From assembly GCA_034522055.1 (NCBI GenBank), contig JAXHLS010000002.1, positions 2,232,001 to 2,296,000 of the forward strand: 64,000 nucleotides of DNA. Reading direction: 5' to 3'. Under the pieces are notes generated by a model. That model made no database searches. It had not been told where the DNA came from and was given only the letters and a program-made list of their open reading frames with translations. The position numbers and the translations under genes are program-made. This DNA is from Gammaproteobacteria bacterium. Lineage in GTDB: Bacteria; Pseudomonadota; Gammaproteobacteria; JAABTG01. Shown here in pieces: positions 41,268-50,068 of the stretch; positions within the stretch are counted from its first letter, which is position 1, and every line of letters starts with the position of its first letter.

Positions 41268-42314
<1,047 letters not shown>

Positions 42315-42986
42315 TTATTCCTGGTGGCCGCGCCCGGGTGCGGTCCTGGCGGTGGCCGCCTCGGGATAGAGGCGCTTGGCCAGGCGGATGAACTCGAAGG
42401 CAGCCTTGCCCTGGCGCTCCAGCTCGAATACCGCGAGGCCTTCGCTGAAGGATCGGCGGAACATGGTGCGCTGGCCGAGACGGCGCTTCAGCACCGTGGC
42501 GCCGGGGAGGGAGGCGAGGGCCTCCTCGGCCTCGTCCGATTCACGTACGGAATGGTGGGTGTCGGCACGGTTGATGAAGGTGAGGATCTCCGGCCGGGCA
42601 TCGGGATTGAGGGCCTCGGCGATGATGTTGAGAAAGCGTTGGGTGGACCACACGTCGGCCTGACTCGGTCCCACCGGAATAAGAATACGGTCGGCCATAT
42701 TGATGGCCTGGCGCATGGCCCACAGGTTGGAAGCTCCCACATCCACGAGGACTTCTCCGCTGTGACCCTTGAGCACGGTGCCGGGGTCGTTCTCTGCGCG
42801 ATAGATGGGCACCTCCGGGAGGATGTTCTCCTCGCGCCTGACCTCGCCGACATCGCTCAAGGTGGCCTGGGGATCGAGATCGAAGGCGACGACCTCTACC
42901 TTGGCATGGGCCAGCCACACGGCGAGATTGAATGCCACCGTACTCTTGCCCGAGCCACCCTTCAGGTTGCCGACGACCGTAATCAT
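42315..42986 (-). CDS. ParA/MinD-type P-loop ATPase, orphan
   Basis: A 223-residue protein starting MITVVGNLKGGSGKSTVAFN, with the deviant Walker A KGGSGKST including the signature lysine, and Walker A' EVVAFDLDPQATLSDVG. There is no N-terminal DNA-binding domain and no adjacent parB, so it is not the main chromosome-partition system. Such small orphan ParA proteins can position other cellular cargo. It lies 33 bp upstream of hemB on the same strand and has GGGTAGG as a plausible binding site. Confidence 0.85.
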   Translation of the reverse strand: MITVVGNLKGGSGKSTVAFNLAVWLAHAKVEVVAFDLDPQATLSDVGEVRREENILPEVPIYRAENDPGTVLKGHSGEVLVDVGASNLWAMRQAINMADRILIPVGPSQADVWSTQRFLNIIAEALNPDARPEILTFINRADTHHSVRESDEAEEALASLPGATVLKRRLGQRTMFRRSFSEGLAVFELERQGKAAFEFIRLAKRLYPEAATARTAPGRGHQE

Positions 42987-43053: not shown

Positions 43054-43680
43054 TCAACGCCGGCCCTGGGGGGCACGTTGGGGCATTTCTATCTGCTCGT
43101 AGCCGGCGGGGATCTCGAAGAGATCCGCCGGCTGGGGGCCCACCTCGATGGCGTTGAGTTCCCTCACCATGCCACTGGGACCCTCGCCGCGGATGGGGAT
43201 GCGCAGTTCCTTGTCGAACCACTCCGTCCACTCCACCGCTTGCTGGCTCCGGCCCTGGCCGGGGGCGACGAAACGCCATTTCTCGGCCTCCCGCCCATTG
43301 ATCTTCTCGACGCCGAGGCGGGTACACTGCAGGCTGTTGGCGTCCTGCAGGCAGGGGCTGCCCGGTTCGTCGGGCAGCGGCGGCTCCTGGCGGCCGCCGG
43401 CAGCCGCGGGCTCACCGGAAAACTCCACGTATTGCTTTTTCTTGGGGTTCAACAGCCAGGTGATGTTGCTGGACTTGTCGTGGATCCGGATACGCTCTTC
43501 CCCCTTGATGGAGGTTTCCTCGCGCATGTTGTCGCCGCTGACGTAGAGCTTGGACGTCATGTCCGGTTGGTTCGGTGCCTTCTGCACCATGGTGGCGGAA
43601 AATTCCGCGGCGAGGGCCGCGGGCGCGAGGCCGGTCAGCCATAGGGCCATGATTCCAAGCAATCCATAACGCATTTTCAT
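43054..43680 (-). CDS. DUF4412-type periplasmic protein
   Basis: A 208-residue protein with a signal peptide ending PAALAAEF. The mature part (FSATMVQKAPNQPDMTSKLY, EERIRIHDKSSNITWLLNPK) has the repetitive beta-strand character of DUF4412/LolA-like proteins that may bind lipids. There is one Cys pair (SPCLQDANSLQC). AGGTAGG precedes the ATG. Probable first gene of a run with the ParA gene (67 bp gap). Function unknown. Confidence 0.72.
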   Translation of the reverse strand: MKMRYGLLGIMALWLTGLAPAALAAEFSATMVQKAPNQPDMTSKLYVSGDNMREETSIKGEERIRIHDKSSNITWLLNPKKKQYVEFSGEPAAAGGRQEPPLPDEPGSPCLQDANSLQCTRLGVEKINGREAEKWRFVAPGQGRSQQAVEWTEWFDKELRIPIRGEGPSGMVRELNAIEVGPQPADLFEIPAGYEQIEMPQRAPQGRR

Positions 43681-43851: not shown

Positions 43852-44373
43852 TCAGTAGGGTGCCGGCATGCCGGGTAAGGGGGGTACGCCGCCCCAGGGC
43901 CCGGTCCCGTACCCGGGGACGGGACCGGAGGGGTAAGCGGGGGCAGGGCCATAGCCGGGGTACGCCGGCATGCCACCTCCCCACGGGGTAACCTCGTCGC
44001 GCCGCCGCGTGCTCTCTCTCTCACGGGTCTGGCGTTCCTGATCGCTGCGGCTGCCGGTGTCACCCCATGGGCGGTCCGACCAATCGGACCATGGGTTGTA
44101 GGTCTTGCGTCGCTGTTCCTGTTTCTGTTGCGGTGGAGGGTTGCGCAAACCCCAGGGCTGGCCCCCGGATCGGCGGTCACGCCATTGATCATCGGTGTCC
44201 CGCGAAGGTGCGGGGTCCACCGGGTCCAGCCACCAAGCGTCATCCCGGGATTCGGCCCAAGCCGTGCCGCCATCCTTTCCACCGCTGCCCCAGGAGCGGC
44301 CTCCATCCTCCTGCCACCATTCCCCGGCCCAGAGCGGCTGACCGACGAGCAGGGATAAGGTGACGATGGCCAT
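43852..44373 (-). CDS. Secreted Trp/Gly/Pro-rich low-complexity protein
   Basis: About 173 residues from ATG 44373 (MAIVTLSLLVGQPLWAGEWW), preceded by GGAAGGGTGAAA; an upstream ATG at 44406 lacks a site. After the signal peptide the protein is charged and Trp-rich (WWQEDGGRSWGSGG, NPWSDWSDRPWGD) and ends in Pro/Gly/Tyr repeats (GGMPAYPGYGPAPAYPSGP). It has no recognised domain. The composition suggests an unstructured envelope protein. It follows the efflux-pump gene on the same strand by 67 bp. Confidence 0.6.
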   Translation of the reverse strand: MAIVTLSLLVGQPLWAGEWWQEDGGRSWGSGGKDGGTAWAESRDDAWWLDPVDPAPSRDTDDQWRDRRSGGQPWGLRNPPPQQKQEQRRKTYNPWSDWSDRPWGDTGSRSDQERQTRERESTRRRDEVTPWGGGMPAYPGYGPAPAYPSGPVPGYGTGPWGGVPPLPGMPAPY

Positions 44374-44440
44374 TTTCACCCTTCCCACTTTCTCTTGATG
44401 CGTCACGTACAGACACGGCCGGGTATGCGCGGACAGATAC

Positions 44441-47400
44441 TCAGTCGTCGTGTCCGGACGAACCGGTTCCGAGACCGGACATGTCCTGCTTGAGGCGAAT
44501 TCCCCGCCGCTTCTTGCGGGGGCCCGAAATGTCTTCCCCCGCCGAACGGGGGTCGCGGCGCGGCGTCTGGGATGCCCCTTCTTTGCGTGCCGCGGCGGGT
44601 TGGCCCGCGCCGTTGGATGGTGGGGCCGGGGTGGCGGGCTTCTTCAGTGAGATCCGTTTCTTGCCGGGCGCCTTGGGGGCGGGCGATTTGCGCGCCGTTT
44701 GTGGGGCGTCCTGCGGGGGCGTCCCCGGCGTTGCGGCAGGGGGCGTGGATGGTTCCTCAGTGGCGGCGGGGACGGCCTCTGATAGCGCCCGCCGGGCACT
44801 TTCCGCGGCGGCCGGAACGGACTCTGGTGCCGCGCCGGATTGCCCGGTGGTGGCCGGGTCCGTGTTCTTCGGCGGGGCGGGCGCACGGTCTGCTGCCTCG
44901 GTGTCCTTTGCGGTCGGCGTCTGCGCGGTGGCCGGTGGGGTCGGGGCGGCTGCCCCGCTGTCCGGTTCAGGAGCAGCGGTGTCGGGCGCTTGGCGTTCGC
45001 GGGGGGCGGCGGCGGACCGCGGGGCCTCCTCGCCGCGTGGGGTGGGTGCCGCCGCCGGCTCGGTGCCCTGGATGCTGACCTCGGGCGGCTGCGATGGGGT
45101 TGCCTGGCCGTTGCTGTCTTCCCCGCGTTTCGGTATCAAGCGCTTGAGCAGGGCCATCAGGGCGAGGACCGCACCCCTCAACATGAACAGGGCCATGTAG
45201 CCGATGTTGGCAACCCGCTCCCGCAGGGTGGGTTTGGGCTGGGCGCGCACCGCCGATGCCGGGCTGGGCAGGGGGCGGGGATCGGGGCCGCCGCCGGTGG
45301 GACCCACCGGGTCACCTCCCCCCGGGCCACCGTGGCCGGGCGGGAAGGCCAGGGAGATGAGGGAATCGGAGGCGGCGATACAGCCCAGGGGGATGACGAT
45401 GAGGGTCAGGACCGTGGACACCATCACGCCGAAGGACAGGGAGATGGCCATGCCCTTGAAGATGGGGTCGCCCAGGATCACGCTGGAGCCGGCCACCAGG
45501 GCGAAGGCCGTGATCATGATGGGCCGGGTGCGGGTGGTGCAGGCCTGGATCACCGCCTCTTTCACCTCGGTGCCGTCACGGATGGCGTGGATGGCGAAGT
45601 CCACCAGCAGGATGGAGTTGCGCACGATGATGCCGGCTAGGGCGATCCAGCCGATCATGGAGGTGGCGGTGAACTCGGCGCCGAACAGCATGTGCCCCGG
45701 TATGATGCCCAGCAGGGTGAGGGGAATGGGGGCCATGATGAGCAGAGGCACCCTGAAATTGCCGAACTCCCACACCACCAGGATGTAGATCAACACCAGG
45801 GCGGCGGCGAAGGCGATGCCCATGTCGCGGAAGGTCTCGTAGGTGACGGTCCACTCGCCACCCCATTCGAAGCCGAGTTTCGAATCATTGGGCGGTGGCC
45901 CCGTGAAGTGACCATAGTATTGCTGGCCCTCGCCGTTCATGGCATCGCGCAGCCACTCGTAATCACGGTCCTCGCGGATCATCTTCTCCACCTGGAACAT
46001 GCCGTAGATGGGGGCGGCGAGCCGCCCGACGCTCTCGGCGGTGACATACTCCACCGCCCGCAGATCCTTGTGATAGAGGGTGGGCTGGGTGGGAACCTGG
46101 ACGAAGTGGCCCAACTCCGCCAGGGGGATGGTCTGGCCGCCGGCGGTGGGGATGGGCAGGTCACCGAGAACGCTGATCTGGGAGCGCTTGTAGAGCGGGA
46201 CCTGGATCACGATGTTGGTGGGCTCAAGCACCTTGGACTGTTTGATGTCCCCCACCTTGTAACCGCCCATGGCCATGGTGACGTTGCGGTTGATGGTGTC
46301 CACGGAGATGCCACGCCGTACCGCCTTCTCCGTATCCACCTCGAAGCGCCAGTAGCTGGAGGGCTCTTCCACGTAGCTGTAGACGTCATCCAGGTTCTCG
46401 GCCTTCTCGAACATCTCCGCCATGGCCCCAGCCATGGCGCGCCGGGCCTCGCCCGAGGGACCGTAGATCTCGGCCACCACGGTCTGCAGTACCGGTGGCC
46501 CCGGCGGCATCTCCACCACCGCGATATCGGCGCCGGTGTTGCGGATGGTGGTTCGCAGCTCGGAGTCGGGGCCGGCGATGAGTTCGCGGGTCATCACCGC
46601 CAGCTCGTGGCTGGAGAGGTCGCGTTTGGTCTTGTGGGTGAGCTGTACCTGGACCTCGGCCTGCCACGGCCTGTCCCGCAAGTAGTAGTGGCGCACCATG
46701 CCGTTGAAGTCGAAGGGCCGGGCGGTGCCCACATAGGTCTGCAGGGCCGTCACCTCGGGGATCTCGGCGCGGATGGCCTGGGCGATCTGGCGCGTCAGGT
46801 TGGCGGTCACCGGCAGGGCCGTGCCCTCGGGCATGTTGACCACCAGGCTGAACTCGGGCTTGTTGTCCAGGGGCAGCATCTTTACCGTGACCCAGGTGGT
46901 ATAGAACATGAACAACGCCAGGAACAACGCCCCCCACAGGGCGAGCCGGAACAACAGGCGCTTGCCGCGATGGTCGATGAGGGGGATGAGGACGCGCCGG
47001 AACAGGCCGTCGAGGCGGGAGGCCATGGCATGCTCCCGCTTCTCCTGGCGATGCAGGTAGGCCTGGCTGGGCTTGAGGCGCAGCGCCCACCAGGGGGTGA
47101 ACATGAAGGCCGCCAGCAGGGAGACGATCATGGCCACCGAGCCGAGCGCCGGGATGGGTTCCATGTACGGTCCCATCATGCCGCGCACGAAGCCCATGGG
47201 CAGCAGGGCGGCCACCACGGTGAAGGTGGCGATGATGGTGGGGTTGCCCACTTCCCGCACCGCATCCACCGCCACCTCGGCGCTGGTGCTGTCGGATTCG
47301 AGCCAGCGCCGGTAGATGTTCTCCACCACCACGATGGCGTCGTCCACCAGGATGCCGATGGAGAAGATGAGGGCGAACAGGGAGACCCGGTCGATGGTGT

Positions 47401-48640
47401 AGCCCATGAGGAAGGCGGCGAACACCGTGAACAGGAGGACCACGGGGATCACCAGCAGTACCACCAGGGCCGGACGCAGGGCCATGAAGGCGATCAGCAC
47501 CAGCACGAAGACGAAACCGGTGGCCTTGAAGAGCTTCATGATGAGCTCGTTGACCTTGTCGTCGGCCGTCTCGCCGTAGTTGCGGGTAACGCTGGCGGTG
47601 ACATTGCTGGGGATCAGCACCCCCTTGAGGGACTCCACCTTGTCGATGATGGAGGTAGCCACCTGGACCCCGTTGGAGCCCTCCTTCTTGGCCACTGCGA
47701 GGGTGACGGCCGGTACGCCCGCGGCCTCCTCTTCATGGTCACCGGCCGGGGCGGTGTAGTACTCCACCAGCCGGGAGGTCTGCGCTGGCCCGTAGCTGAC
47801 CTGGGCCACGTCACGCACATACACGGGCACGTCGTTGCGGGTGCCCACCACGAGCCGCGACACGTCCTCGGCGCTGCGCAGGAAAGACCCGGTGTAGACG
47901 TTGAAGAAGGTGTTCCGGGCCTCGACGTTGCCGGCCTGCTGCTCGGCGTTGGCGGTGCGGATGGTCTGGGCCACCTGGTCGAGGGTGATGTCGAAGCCAG
48001 ACAGGCGTTGGGGGTAAACGTTCACCTTCACCTGCTCGCGGCTGCCGCCCACCACGAAGCCCTGACCCGTGTCCGGGAGTTCCTTGACCTCCTGGAGGAT
48101 ATCGAGGGCCAGCTTGCGCAGCGCCGCGTCGCCGAGGTTGGCGTCCGGGGACCACAGGGTGACGGTGACCACCGGGACGTCGTCGATGCCCTTGGGCTTG
48201 ACCAGGGGTGGTCGCACCCCTGGCGGCATCTTGTCCAGGTTGGACTGGATCTTGTCGTGGACCTTGACGATGGAGGGGCCCAACTCCTCGCCCACGAAGA
48301 ACTGCACGGTGACGATGGCCTGACCGCGCTGGGAGGCCGAATAGACGTGCTCCACCCCCGGGATCTCGCTCATGATGCGTTCCAGCGGCCGGGTGGCGAG
48401 GCTGGCCACCTGGGTGGCATCGGCGCCCGGATACTGGACGAAGATGTCCACCATGGGCACGGAGATCTGGGGGTCTTCCTGGCGCGGCGTGACGGCGAGG
48501 CCGATGAGGCCCAGGAACAGCATGCCCACGAAGAGCAGCGGCGACAGGGGCGAGTTGATGAACGCCCGGGTCAGGTTGCCTGCGAGGCCCAGATGTTCCT
48601 CGTCCTGTGCTTCGTTTTTGGTCTTGTCGTGGTCTGCCAT
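44441..48640 (-). CDS. RND efflux permease with about 300-residue C-terminal extension
   Basis: A 1399-residue protein from ATG 48640 (MADHDKTKNEAQDEEHLGLA). Residues to about 1095 form a full RND permease: SPLLFVGMLFLGLIGLAV (TM1) and IGILVDDAIVVVENIYRRWL (TM4, double Asp), with the second half repeating the fold (GWIALAGIIVRNSILLVDFA). RND pumps normally end near here. This one continues through a hydrophobic segment (YMALFMLRGAVLALMALLKR, near 1150) into a Pro/Ala/Glu-rich tail that ends in basic clusters GKKRISLKK and RKKRRGIRLKQ. The tail should be cytoplasmic or membrane-associated; its role is unknown. It follows the adaptor gene, separated by a 16-bp perfect stem-loop. Confidence 0.9.
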   Translation of the reverse strand: MADHDKTKNEAQDEEHLGLAGNLTRAFINSPLSPLLFVGMLFLGLIGLAVTPRQEDPQISVPMVDIFVQYPGADATQVASLATRPLERIMSEIPGVEHVYSASQRGQAIVTVQFFVGEELGPSIVKVHDKIQSNLDKMPPGVRPPLVKPKGIDDVPVVTVTLWSPDANLGDAALRKLALDILQEVKELPDTGQGFVVGGSREQVKVNVYPQRLSGFDITLDQVAQTIRTANAEQQAGNVEARNTFFNVYTGSFLRSAEDVSRLVVGTRNDVPVYVRDVAQVSYGPAQTSRLVEYYTAPAGDHEEEAAGVPAVTLAVAKKEGSNGVQVATSIIDKVESLKGVLIPSNVTASVTRNYGETADDKVNELIMKLFKATGFVFVLVLIAFMALRPALVVLLVIPVVLLFTVFAAFLMGYTIDRVSLFALIFSIGILVDDAIVVVENIYRRWLESDSTSAEVAVDAVREVGNPTIIATFTVVAALLPMGFVRGMMGPYMEPIPALGSVAMIVSLLAAFMFTPWWALRLKPSQAYLHRQEKREHAMASRLDGLFRRVLIPLIDHRGKRLLFRLALWGALFLALFMFYTTWVTVKMLPLDNKPEFSLVVNMPEGTALPVTANLTRQIAQAIRAEIPEVTALQTYVGTARPFDFNGMVRHYYLRDRPWQAEVQVQLTHKTKRDLSSHELAVMTRELIAGPDSELRTTIRNTGADIAVVEMPPGPPVLQTVVAEIYGPSGEARRAMAGAMAEMFEKAENLDDVYSYVEEPSSYWRFEVDTEKAVRRGISVDTINRNVTMAMGGYKVGDIKQSKVLEPTNIVIQVPLYKRSQISVLGDLPIPTAGGQTIPLAELGHFVQVPTQPTLYHKDLRAVEYVTAESVGRLAAPIYGMFQVEKMIREDRDYEWLRDAMNGEGQQYYGHFTGPPPNDSKLGFEWGGEWTVTYETFRDMGIAFAAALVLIYILVVWEFGNFRVPLLIMAPIPLTLLGIIPGHMLFGAEFTATSMIGWIALAGIIVRNSILLVDFAIHAIRDGTEVKEAVIQACTTRTRPIMITAFALVAGSSVILGDPIFKGMAISLSFGVMVSTVLTLIVIPLGCIAASDSLISLAFPPGHGGPGGGDPVGPTGGGPDPRPLPSPASAVRAQPKPTLRERVANIGYMALFMLRGAVLALMALLKRLIPKRGEDSNGQATPSQPPEVSIQGTEPAAAPTPRGEEAPRSAAAPRERQAPDTAAPEPDSGAAAPTPPATAQTPTAKDTEAADRAPAPPKNTDPATTGQSGAAPESVPAAAESARRALSEAVPAATEEPSTPPAATPGTPPQDAPQTARKSPAPKAPGKKRISLKKPATPAPPSNGAGQPAAARKEGASQTPRRDPRSAGEDISGPRKKRRGIRLKQDMSGLGTGSSGHDD

Positions 48641-48704
48641 GCGAGCTGTCGTCCCGGCTGCCGGCGCTGGCCGGCGAATTCTACTCCCGGCCGCGCCTCC
48701 AATA

Positions 48705-48741
48705 ACGCGCATCGGGGAGCCCAGTGCTCCCCGATGCGCGT
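48705..48741 (-). other. Perfect 16-bp stem-loop between adaptor and pump genes
   Basis: ACGCGCATCGGGGAGC (48705-48720) is exactly complementary to GCTCCCCGATGCGCGT (48726-48741), with a 5-base loop. In the minus-strand transcript it lies after the adaptor stop and about 65 bp before the pump ATG. The sequence after the stem is TTATTGGAGG, so there is no U-tract. Likely effects are mRNA stabilisation or reduced expression of the pump relative to the adaptor. Confidence 0.85.
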
Positions 48742-48802: not shown

Positions 48803-50068
48803 TCAGTAGGGGCGGCGTCCTGATGCCGGGCCCATGTCGAGGGGGGCCTGGCCTTGAATGAATATGACCTCACCGGGGCTGAGGCCTGACAGCACGGAGA
48901 CGGTCTGGGCATCCAGATACTCGCCGAGCCGTACCACCCGGAGTTCGCGACCGCCGTCGGGGTTTGCCACCTGGACCATGGGCAAGCTGCCGCGCTGGAT
49001 GAGGGCGGAGGTGGGGATGGCGATGACGTTGCGGACCAGGGAATTGTTGTCGGGGATCATGACCTCCGCGTACATGCCGGGAGCCGCCGGTGTGCCCGGC
49101 TGGATATCGAATTTCACCGTGACCGTATGGCGTTGCGGGTCCGCCATGGGAAAGACCCGGGCCACCCGCACCTTGACGGGCTTGTCGCTCACGTCGAGGC
49201 GGGCCTCCAGTACCTGCCCTTCGCGCACGGGCATCAGGCGTGCCGGCACCTCCACCTGGATCTGCAGAGAACGCACGTCCGCGAACTTCACCAGGGGCTG
49301 TCCGGGCTGCGCGGTATCCCCCTCCTCCACGAACTTATTGACGATGACGCCGTCAAAGGGGGCGATGGATTTGGCGTCGCGGAACTTGGTTTCGATCTGG
49401 CGCAACTGAGCCAAGGCCCGCTGGTAGGCATTCTGAGCCTGTTCCACCTGGGTCTGGCGGCCGTACAGATCGCTGTAGCGCTCGAGGCCGGGCGACCCCT
49501 GGCCCATCATGCTGCCCATGGGCCGGGTGAAGAACTGGTCGAAGAGCGTAGGCATGCCCATGCCGGGCATGGTGGATGGCGAGCGCGCCTGGGGGGCGAT
49601 GAGTTCCCGGGAATACTGGGTCTGGGCGTTGCGTATGCCGGCCTCGGCATCCCGCAGGGCCGCCCACGCGGCCTGCTGCTGGGCCCGGAGTTCGCTGTCG
49701 TCCAGTTCCACCAGCACCTCGCCTTCCTCGAAGTAGTCGCCTTCGGAGCCCGCGATGTTGACCACCCGGCCGGGTATCTGGGCCGCCAGGGTGACATCCT
49801 TGAAGGGTACCACGGTGCCGCCCAGGGTGACGGTGGCCTCCCGCGAGGCCTCCTGGACCACCATGGTGGGCGTGCCCTGGATGGGGGCACCCTGACGACC
49901 GTAGTAGCCACCGGGGGCCTGACCGCCGCCATAGCCCTGGTTGCCCCCGCTGCGGCCAAAGTCCTGGCGCCCGTAGTCCTGGGCGGCGGCGTCCTGGGCG
50001 GCAACGGTGAAGGCCGCACCGAGCAGGGCGGCGGTAAGTGCGAGCAGATGTGGTGAGAGGCGTTCCAT
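48803..50068 (-). CDS. RND efflux periplasmic adaptor with Met-rich hairpin
   Basis: A 421-residue adaptor with a signal peptide (MERLSPHLLALTAALLGAAF). The mature start is a Gly/Tyr/Gln-rich stretch (QDYGRQDFGRSGGNQGYGGG) of unknown role. Lipoyl halves LAAQIPGRVVNIAGSEGDYF and SIAPFDGVIVNKFVEEGDTA flank a hairpin whose tip contains TMPGMGMPTLFDQFF and RPMGSMMGQG, unusually rich in methionine. Beta-barrel and proximal domains follow. It works with the downstream permease; no outer-membrane factor is encoded here. Confidence 0.9.
   Translation of the reverse strand: MERLSPHLLALTAALLGAAFTVAAQDAAAQDYGRQDFGRSGGNQGYGGGQAPGGYYGRQGAPIQGTPTMVVQEASREATVTLGGTVVPFKDVTLAAQIPGRVVNIAGSEGDYFEEGEVLVELDDSELRAQQQAAWAALRDAEAGIRNAQTQYSRELIAPQARSPSTMPGMGMPTLFDQFFTRPMGSMMGQGSPGLERYSDLYGRQTQVEQAQNAYQRALAQLRQIETKFRDAKSIAPFDGVIVNKFVEEGDTAQPGQPLVKFADVRSLQIQVEVPARLMPVREGQVLEARLDVSDKPVKVRVARVFPMADPQRHTVTVKFDIQPGTPAAPGMYAEVMIPDNNSLVRNVIAIPTSALIQRGSLPMVQVANPDGGRELRVVRLGEYLDAQTVSVLSGLSPGEVIFIQGQAPLDMGPASGRRPY

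Follow-up and report, generated by a model that had tools for sequence, protein, structure and literature searches.

A conserved basic tip on the C-terminal tail of an RND efflux permease, proposed as the partner peptide of a ParA-family ATPase

The window analysed, a stretch of 64,000 nucleotides of gammaproteobacterial DNA, contains a gene run in which an RND permease gene lies between the gene for its periplasmic adaptor and genes encoding a small protein, a DUF4412 protein, a ParA-family ATPase and HemB (Table 1). The permease carries the ACR_tran domain and adjoins an RND_mfp adaptor, as found for HAE1-like RND efflux permeases, and it scores under every curated cut-off of the NCBIfam models RND_permease_1/2, TIGR00914 and TIGR00915 (e.g. 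426.4 bits against 1250 for RND_permease_2). The DUF4412 protein has a counterpart in many tailed loci and matches VioE structures weakly (E 0.06). Small low-complexity proteins rich in W, Y, G, P and R were observed between the pump and ParA in nine of the thirteen relatives examined (L002, L004, L010, L013, L014, L023, L050, L054 and L076), several of which show repeated YRFR(P)-like motifs and an N-terminus that, judged by eye, is signal-like.

Table 1. Features of the permease gene run, in window positions
Feature	Position	Strand	Evidence and remarks
RND permease gene	48712..44441	minus	1423 aa, single open frame
RND permease core, HAE1-like pump, about residues 25-1106	45395..48640	-	Pfam ACR_tran (PF00873) 7e-145; best solved chain 6vej, RND efflux transporter
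Post-TM12 hydrophobic helix, residues 1163-1192	45137..45226	-	AlphaFold2 helix; hydrophobic segment in 85/101 tip-bearing tails
Disordered Ala/Pro-rich linker, residues 1193-1399	44516..45136	-	Low pLDDT, no secondary structure; variable length and sequence among relatives
Internal basic cluster KKRISLKK, residues 1351-1358	44639..44662	-	Omega 0.056 against L002; similar cluster in 14/91 tails
Tip motif RRGIRLK, residues 1402-1408, proposed ParA-partner peptide	44489..44509	-	101/104 tailed relatives; shuffle expectation 0.28
Membrane-fusion (periplasmic adaptor) protein, just upstream of pump	48803..50068	-	TIGR01730 RND_mfp 163.9 bits against cut-off 94.9
Small W/G/P-rich protein, probably secreted (by eye), same gene run	43852..44406	-	Hydrophobic N-terminus
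DUF4412 protein, same gene run	43054..43680	-	PF14371, 4.9e-08; between pump and ParA in many relatives
ParA-family ATPase, proposed tip partner	42315..42986	-	Pfam CbiA, AAA_31, MipZ; KGGSGKST signature; fold nearest ParF 4dzz
HemB	41268-42281		Downstream in same gene run

The first-pass annotation had described a permease running about 300 residues past its usual end. The IPLGC sequence that ends TM12 begins at residue 1107, and the extension beyond TM12 amounts to about 310 residues, in which a helix of 30 residues is followed by about 200 residues of disordered linker and then by a basic tip. In an AlphaFold2 model covering residues 900-1423 and built from 36 sequences, a single confident tail helix was predicted (block pLDDT 83-89, 70 in the last block), after which all blocks have a pLDDT of 54 or less with no secondary structure up to the C-terminus. 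No domain was found in a Pfam search of the tail, and its DNA had no match in the plasmids searched. Two basic clusters, also recorded earlier, were located at residues 1351-1358 (KKRISLKK) and 1400-1408 (KKRRGIRLK), the latter containing the RRGIRLK tip 15 residues before the permease end.

Relatives of the pump were collected by similarity (the best 80 of 331, most of which have such a tail), by ParA or by the tip, which was one of six probe peptides; the set is thus non-random. In 121 of the 159 loci examined the pump ORF extended to TM12, in 117 of these it also had its stop, and 111 remained after removal of identical ends. In this biased set, the tail was present in 104 of the 111 non-redundant complete ORFs and the tip in 101 of the 104 tailed relatives, 76 of them with exact RRGIRLK. 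Together with the single open frame and with purifying selection relative to L002, this agrees with the earlier view that the frame is continuous and the extension real, and a sequencing error is a very unlikely source of the tail as judged from these comparisons. Tails range from 113 to 398 aa (median 248) and the tip lies 0-30 residues before the stop; shuffling the last 100 residues gave a mean of 0.28 loose and zero exact tip matches per round. Three tailed relatives do not show the tip. Two (L066 and L069, Thioploca and Thiomargarita drafts) have degenerate tips, and the third (L134) was scored so because its frame is broken in the assembly, a tip lying in another frame; its genome, G072, is counted among those with a tip below.

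The linker drifts fast in sequence while the tip stays. Many linkers are rich in KKA/KKP repeats and their basicity is variable, the window tail having a net charge of +4 after the helix. Relative to L002, which is 85% identical, omega was 0.34 for the tail and 0.094 for the core, with values of 0.056 for the 18 codons around KKRISLKK and 0.19 for the last 40 codons. Clusters resembling KKRISLKK, of the form KKR(P)S(A/T)LKK, are confined to a minority of the tails (14 among the 91 that a first extraction gave), and the widely conserved part of the tail is the RRGIRLK tip and not KKRISLKK. Searching the own genome with the tip DNA pattern returned one match, the permease gene itself. The fast drift of the linker is what would be expected of a neutral low-complexity extension of no function, but the tip and the internal cluster are strongly constrained and the tail persists in many families and also beyond the class, which makes this explanation barely credible.

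A membrane-like segment had been placed near residue 1150. The hydrophobic helix exists, slightly further on (residues 1163-1192), but is unlikely to be a single-pass transmembrane segment judging from its distribution and flanks. A Kyte-Doolittle average of at least 1.2 over 19 residues was observed in 85 of the 101 tip-bearing tails, which would suit a thirteenth transmembrane helix that leaves the tail in the periplasm and ParA irrelevant to it. However, the remaining 16 tails bear the tip without the helix, the flanks are positive on both sides (mean net charge +1.6 before and +2.8 after), and the C-terminus of an AcrB-type core is cytoplasmic; we regard such a topology as very improbable. 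The helix is probably in-plane or re-entrant instead, because the tip is identical with or without it and the C-terminus of the core should be cytoplasmic.

The ATPase encoded downstream contains the deviant Walker A signature KGGxGK[S/T] as KGGSGKST, with K9, G10, G11, G13, K14, S15 and T16 invariant in 21 of 21 sequences, and its AlphaFold2 model (pLDDT 83.8) has the ParA/MinD family fold. The closest solved structure is ParF (4dzz), with a Z-score of 23.9 and an rmsd of 2.8 over 199 residues, and MipZ and Soj are also near. No membrane-targeting C-terminal helix was apparent by eye, and for this reason the modelled ATPase seems closer to the nucleoid-binding ParF/ParA type than to membrane-binding MinD. 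Outside the window, the same genome holds a ParA-like gene with a ParB (C2:2332609-2334400, about 37 kb from the window end) and a further ParA-like ATPase of 35% identity (C2:2308390). This ParB (ParB_N, HTH_ParB and ParB_C by Pfam) starts MVAKKRGLGRGLDALLG, a sequence reminiscent of KKRRGIRLK, as a resemblance only.

Across 369 genomes of the class, an ortholog of the ATPase (E <= 1e-55) was found in 63, in one copy each. The tip was sought with a 21-base DNA pattern, which matched 53 genomes, 46 of them encoding exact RRGIRLK; the pattern is noisy, since its reversed form still matches 22 genomes. Exact RRGIRLK occurs in 37 of the 63 genomes with ParA against nine of the 306 without, with 297 having neither (Fisher, about 2e-25), the 37 being pattern matches of which a part was read as pump ORFs. 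Counted by family, the one way in which kinship was handled, the exact tip accompanies ParA in 21 of 31 families against eight of 151 without it (7e-14). In 27 of the 37 genomes the tip and ParA share a contig, always on the same strand and with ParA 0.2-4.6 kb downstream. They lie on separate contigs in the other ten, so that the co-occurrence holds without visible linkage; six of these ten were read, five as tailed pumps (L168-L171 and L236) and one as a free-standing tail (G132).

All 26 genomes with ParA and no exact tip were read, and 18 carry a variant such as RRGIQLK, RRGIKLK, RRGIRLN or RRGIRIK. With variants included, a tip is found in 55 of the 63 ParA genomes, although variants were sought in ParA genomes only and variant-tip pumps without ParA could be undercounted. 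Among the eight ParA genomes in which no tip was seen, six run into contig ends, and the stretches read in the other two (G058 and G249) contain no pump. Of 39 ParA regions outside the class, 20 were fetched, picked on ParA and diversity alone; the tip was found in 15 of these 20 genomes, directly or through a second fetch, and in exact form in all 11 readable complete pumps.

The nine genomes with an exact tip and no ParA ortholog were all fetched as candidate counter-examples and were largely set aside, as in seven the match falls outside a pump ORF and in G100 a weaker ParA (8.7e-52) falls just short of the cut-off. G104 (88% complete) stands as a true exception, with a tailed pump and no ParA detected.

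At loci with at least 3 kb of downstream flank, ParA was found downstream of 51 of 59 tip-bearing pumps against none of five tailless ones. Eight tip-bearing pumps account for the difference: ParA lies slightly farther away for L067 and L075 and on another contig for L043, L047 and L061, none was detected for L059 and L080, and L081 was outside the search. In the draft genomes of L059, L080, L077 and L066, which may be incomplete, no such ParA was found at E <= 1e-10. Their tips are exact in L059, RRGIQLK in L080, altered to RRGMELK in L077 and degenerate in L066. The RGIQLK variant of L080 accompanies ParA in other genomes, and L059 and L080 weigh against a link between tip and ParA, because tip decay does not explain them. 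The Thioploca, Thiomargarita and Thiotrichaceae drafts L066, L069, L077 and L080 all keep the tail, the ParA search having covered L066, L077 and L080.

Tailless paralogs were found in Thiocystis, Thiorhodococcus and related drafts (L065, L068, L070, L071, L073 and L074). In a FastTree phylogeny of the core, these six group together in a single clade (support 1.0) that falls within the tailed pumps, and on account of this nesting the tail was probably lost once in that clade. Neither ParA nor DUF4412 was found beside them (L073 having 96 bases of downstream flank). In the five genomes whose tailless paralog has enough flank, a tailed copy adjoining ParA is present as well; a search for ParA in the sixth (L073, G014) found none. 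The contrast between tailless and tailed pumps is thus one evolutionary event, which weighs against the strength of the ParA link. We also considered the tip as a mark of every pump relative and rejected it, given this nested clade and given that distant RND paralogs in G300, G404, G474 and G552 likewise end without a tail.

The tail of G132 is a separate protein of 349 aa (L172:2977-4023, minus strand) with its own hydrophobic N-terminus; it ends in KRRGIRLK plus eight residues and adjoins ORFs for W/Y/G-rich proteins. With the tip removed, its linker scored 144 against the fused tail of L171, compared with a maximum of 97 in 500 shuffles, a relation that exceeds composition. This genome has a single pump match at E <= 1e-25, a tailless RND encoded on the opposite strand at a distance of about 130 bp. 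This free-standing tail suggests, at the level of sequence, that the tail is a separable module.

The cell probably uses the tail to place or control the pump, and our preferred explanation, which we hold with reasonable though not high confidence, is that the tip is the partner peptide of this ParA and the pump its cargo. A tether to the cytoskeleton, RNA or another partner had been suggested from the first reading of the tail; tethering is supported here, and the gene context and co-occurrence indicate a ParA/MinD-family ATPase, a partner that had not been named. The tip is proposed as the partner peptide because of the ParF-like fold and signature of the ATPase, the published pattern of basic disordered partners and the resemblance to ParB. 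According to the accessible parts of PMC10241942, partners work, or have been suggested to work, via a disordered N-terminus of positive charge, and according to those of PMC9178275, ParB is believed to use an arginine finger of its N-terminal region to stimulate ParA. The tip is basic, conserved and placed in a tail predicted to be disordered, yet it is C-terminal. The permease would therefore bring its own ParA-partner peptide, with the cytoplasmic tail as a flexible tether and the tip near its end. RRGIRLK would dock on the ATP-bound dimer of the ATPase and probably stimulate ATP hydrolysis, as basic disordered partner N-termini do or may do for other ParA/MinD ATPases, and the ATPase would spread, position or cluster the pump relative to the nucleoid, with three tails per trimer. 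In the fuller picture, trimeric efflux pumps would have three ParA-activating tips each, a dedicated ParA would pattern them on the nucleoid or tether them to it, and the tail would serve as a portable docking tag that also occurs on a separate membrane anchor (L172); in our estimation this picture has about an even chance of being correct.

Operon neighbours co-occur for many reasons, which weighs against reading the ATPase as the partner of the tip. The shared gene run and the conserved tip would fit equally well if the ParA, gated by the tail, acted in assembly or activity of the pump complex and not as a positioner; BcsQ is thought to play such a role for cellulose synthase. The fold, however, is nearest to ParF, MipZ and Soj, which pattern surfaces, and there is no hint of assembly in the sequence, so that an assembly factor appears unlikely, if worth keeping in mind. 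The basic linker and tip might instead bind DNA, RNA or ribosomes directly and anchor the pump to the nucleoid without ParA, in the manner of the histone-like domains through which PhaF and PhaM connect granules to DNA. Many linkers carry the KKA/KKP repeats, bacterial histone-like DNA tethers are described in the accessible parts of PMC13052382, and the L059 and L080 exceptions add to the PhaF precedent. Against these stand the variable basicity of the linker and a nearly fixed seven-residue motif, with G, I and L in it, that is inherited with one ParA ortholog; we consider direct anchoring quite unlikely, and the linker could add DNA affinity alongside the ParA route.

No report of a ParA-positioned transporter, of such an RND tail or of DUF4412 was found in the open-access literature searched, outside which most subscription journals lie. 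According to the accessible parts of PMC10241942, the great diversity of partners is why many ParA/MinD ATPases are called orphans, and the cargos include DNA, the divisome, microcompartments, flagella, chemotaxis clusters and conjugation machinery, with one ATPase tied to nitrogen metabolism; the words transporter, efflux and RND are absent from its main text. Partner, motif and cargo can here be read, as a proposal, from the sequence for an efflux pump, a cargo that goes unnamed in the accessible parts of PMC10241942, PMC9178275 and PMC13052382. The matching of orphan ParA proteins to what they move thereby becomes directly testable, using a peptide of seven residues, and there may be a spatial coupling between the nucleoid and a transport machine of the envelope. 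If the proposal is true, envelope transport would join DNA, carboxysomes, chemotaxis arrays and flagella among the things organised by ParA-type gradients, and orphan ParA proteins could be assigned to their cargo by searching for conserved C-terminal tips on membrane machines.

The pump shares its core domain and adaptor neighbour with HAE1/AcrB-type RND permeases and differs from them in its C-terminal tail of about 310 residues. MmpL3-type proteins are RND-superfamily transporters with a long cytoplasmic C-terminal tail like that proposed here, and we know of no ParA link for their tails. The ParF-ParG system of plasmid TP228 provides the closest solved fold of the ATPase (4dzz, and 5u1g, a ParA-ParB complex, with a Z-score of 22.5), whereas the partner there is a centromere-binding protein and identity is about 22%; the ParG tail reportedly works by way of an arginine finger-like motif. 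The histone-like nucleoid tethers PhaF, PhaM and AlgP resemble some of the Lys/Ala/Pro-rich linkers found here, but the Pha tethers, which position granules, are without ParA homology in the accessible parts of PMC13052382, in contrast to the conserved short tip inherited with ParA. As far as PMC10241942 was accessible, the ParA/MinD positioning systems with protein cargo (McdAB, PpfA/ParC and FlhG) have, as is proposed here, a dedicated ATPase beside the cargo genes and a basic disordered terminal partner peptide; here, unlike in those systems, the cargo would be an inner-membrane RND pump and the peptide its own C-terminal tip. The conserved tail system is probably a new variant of the ParA cargo systems.
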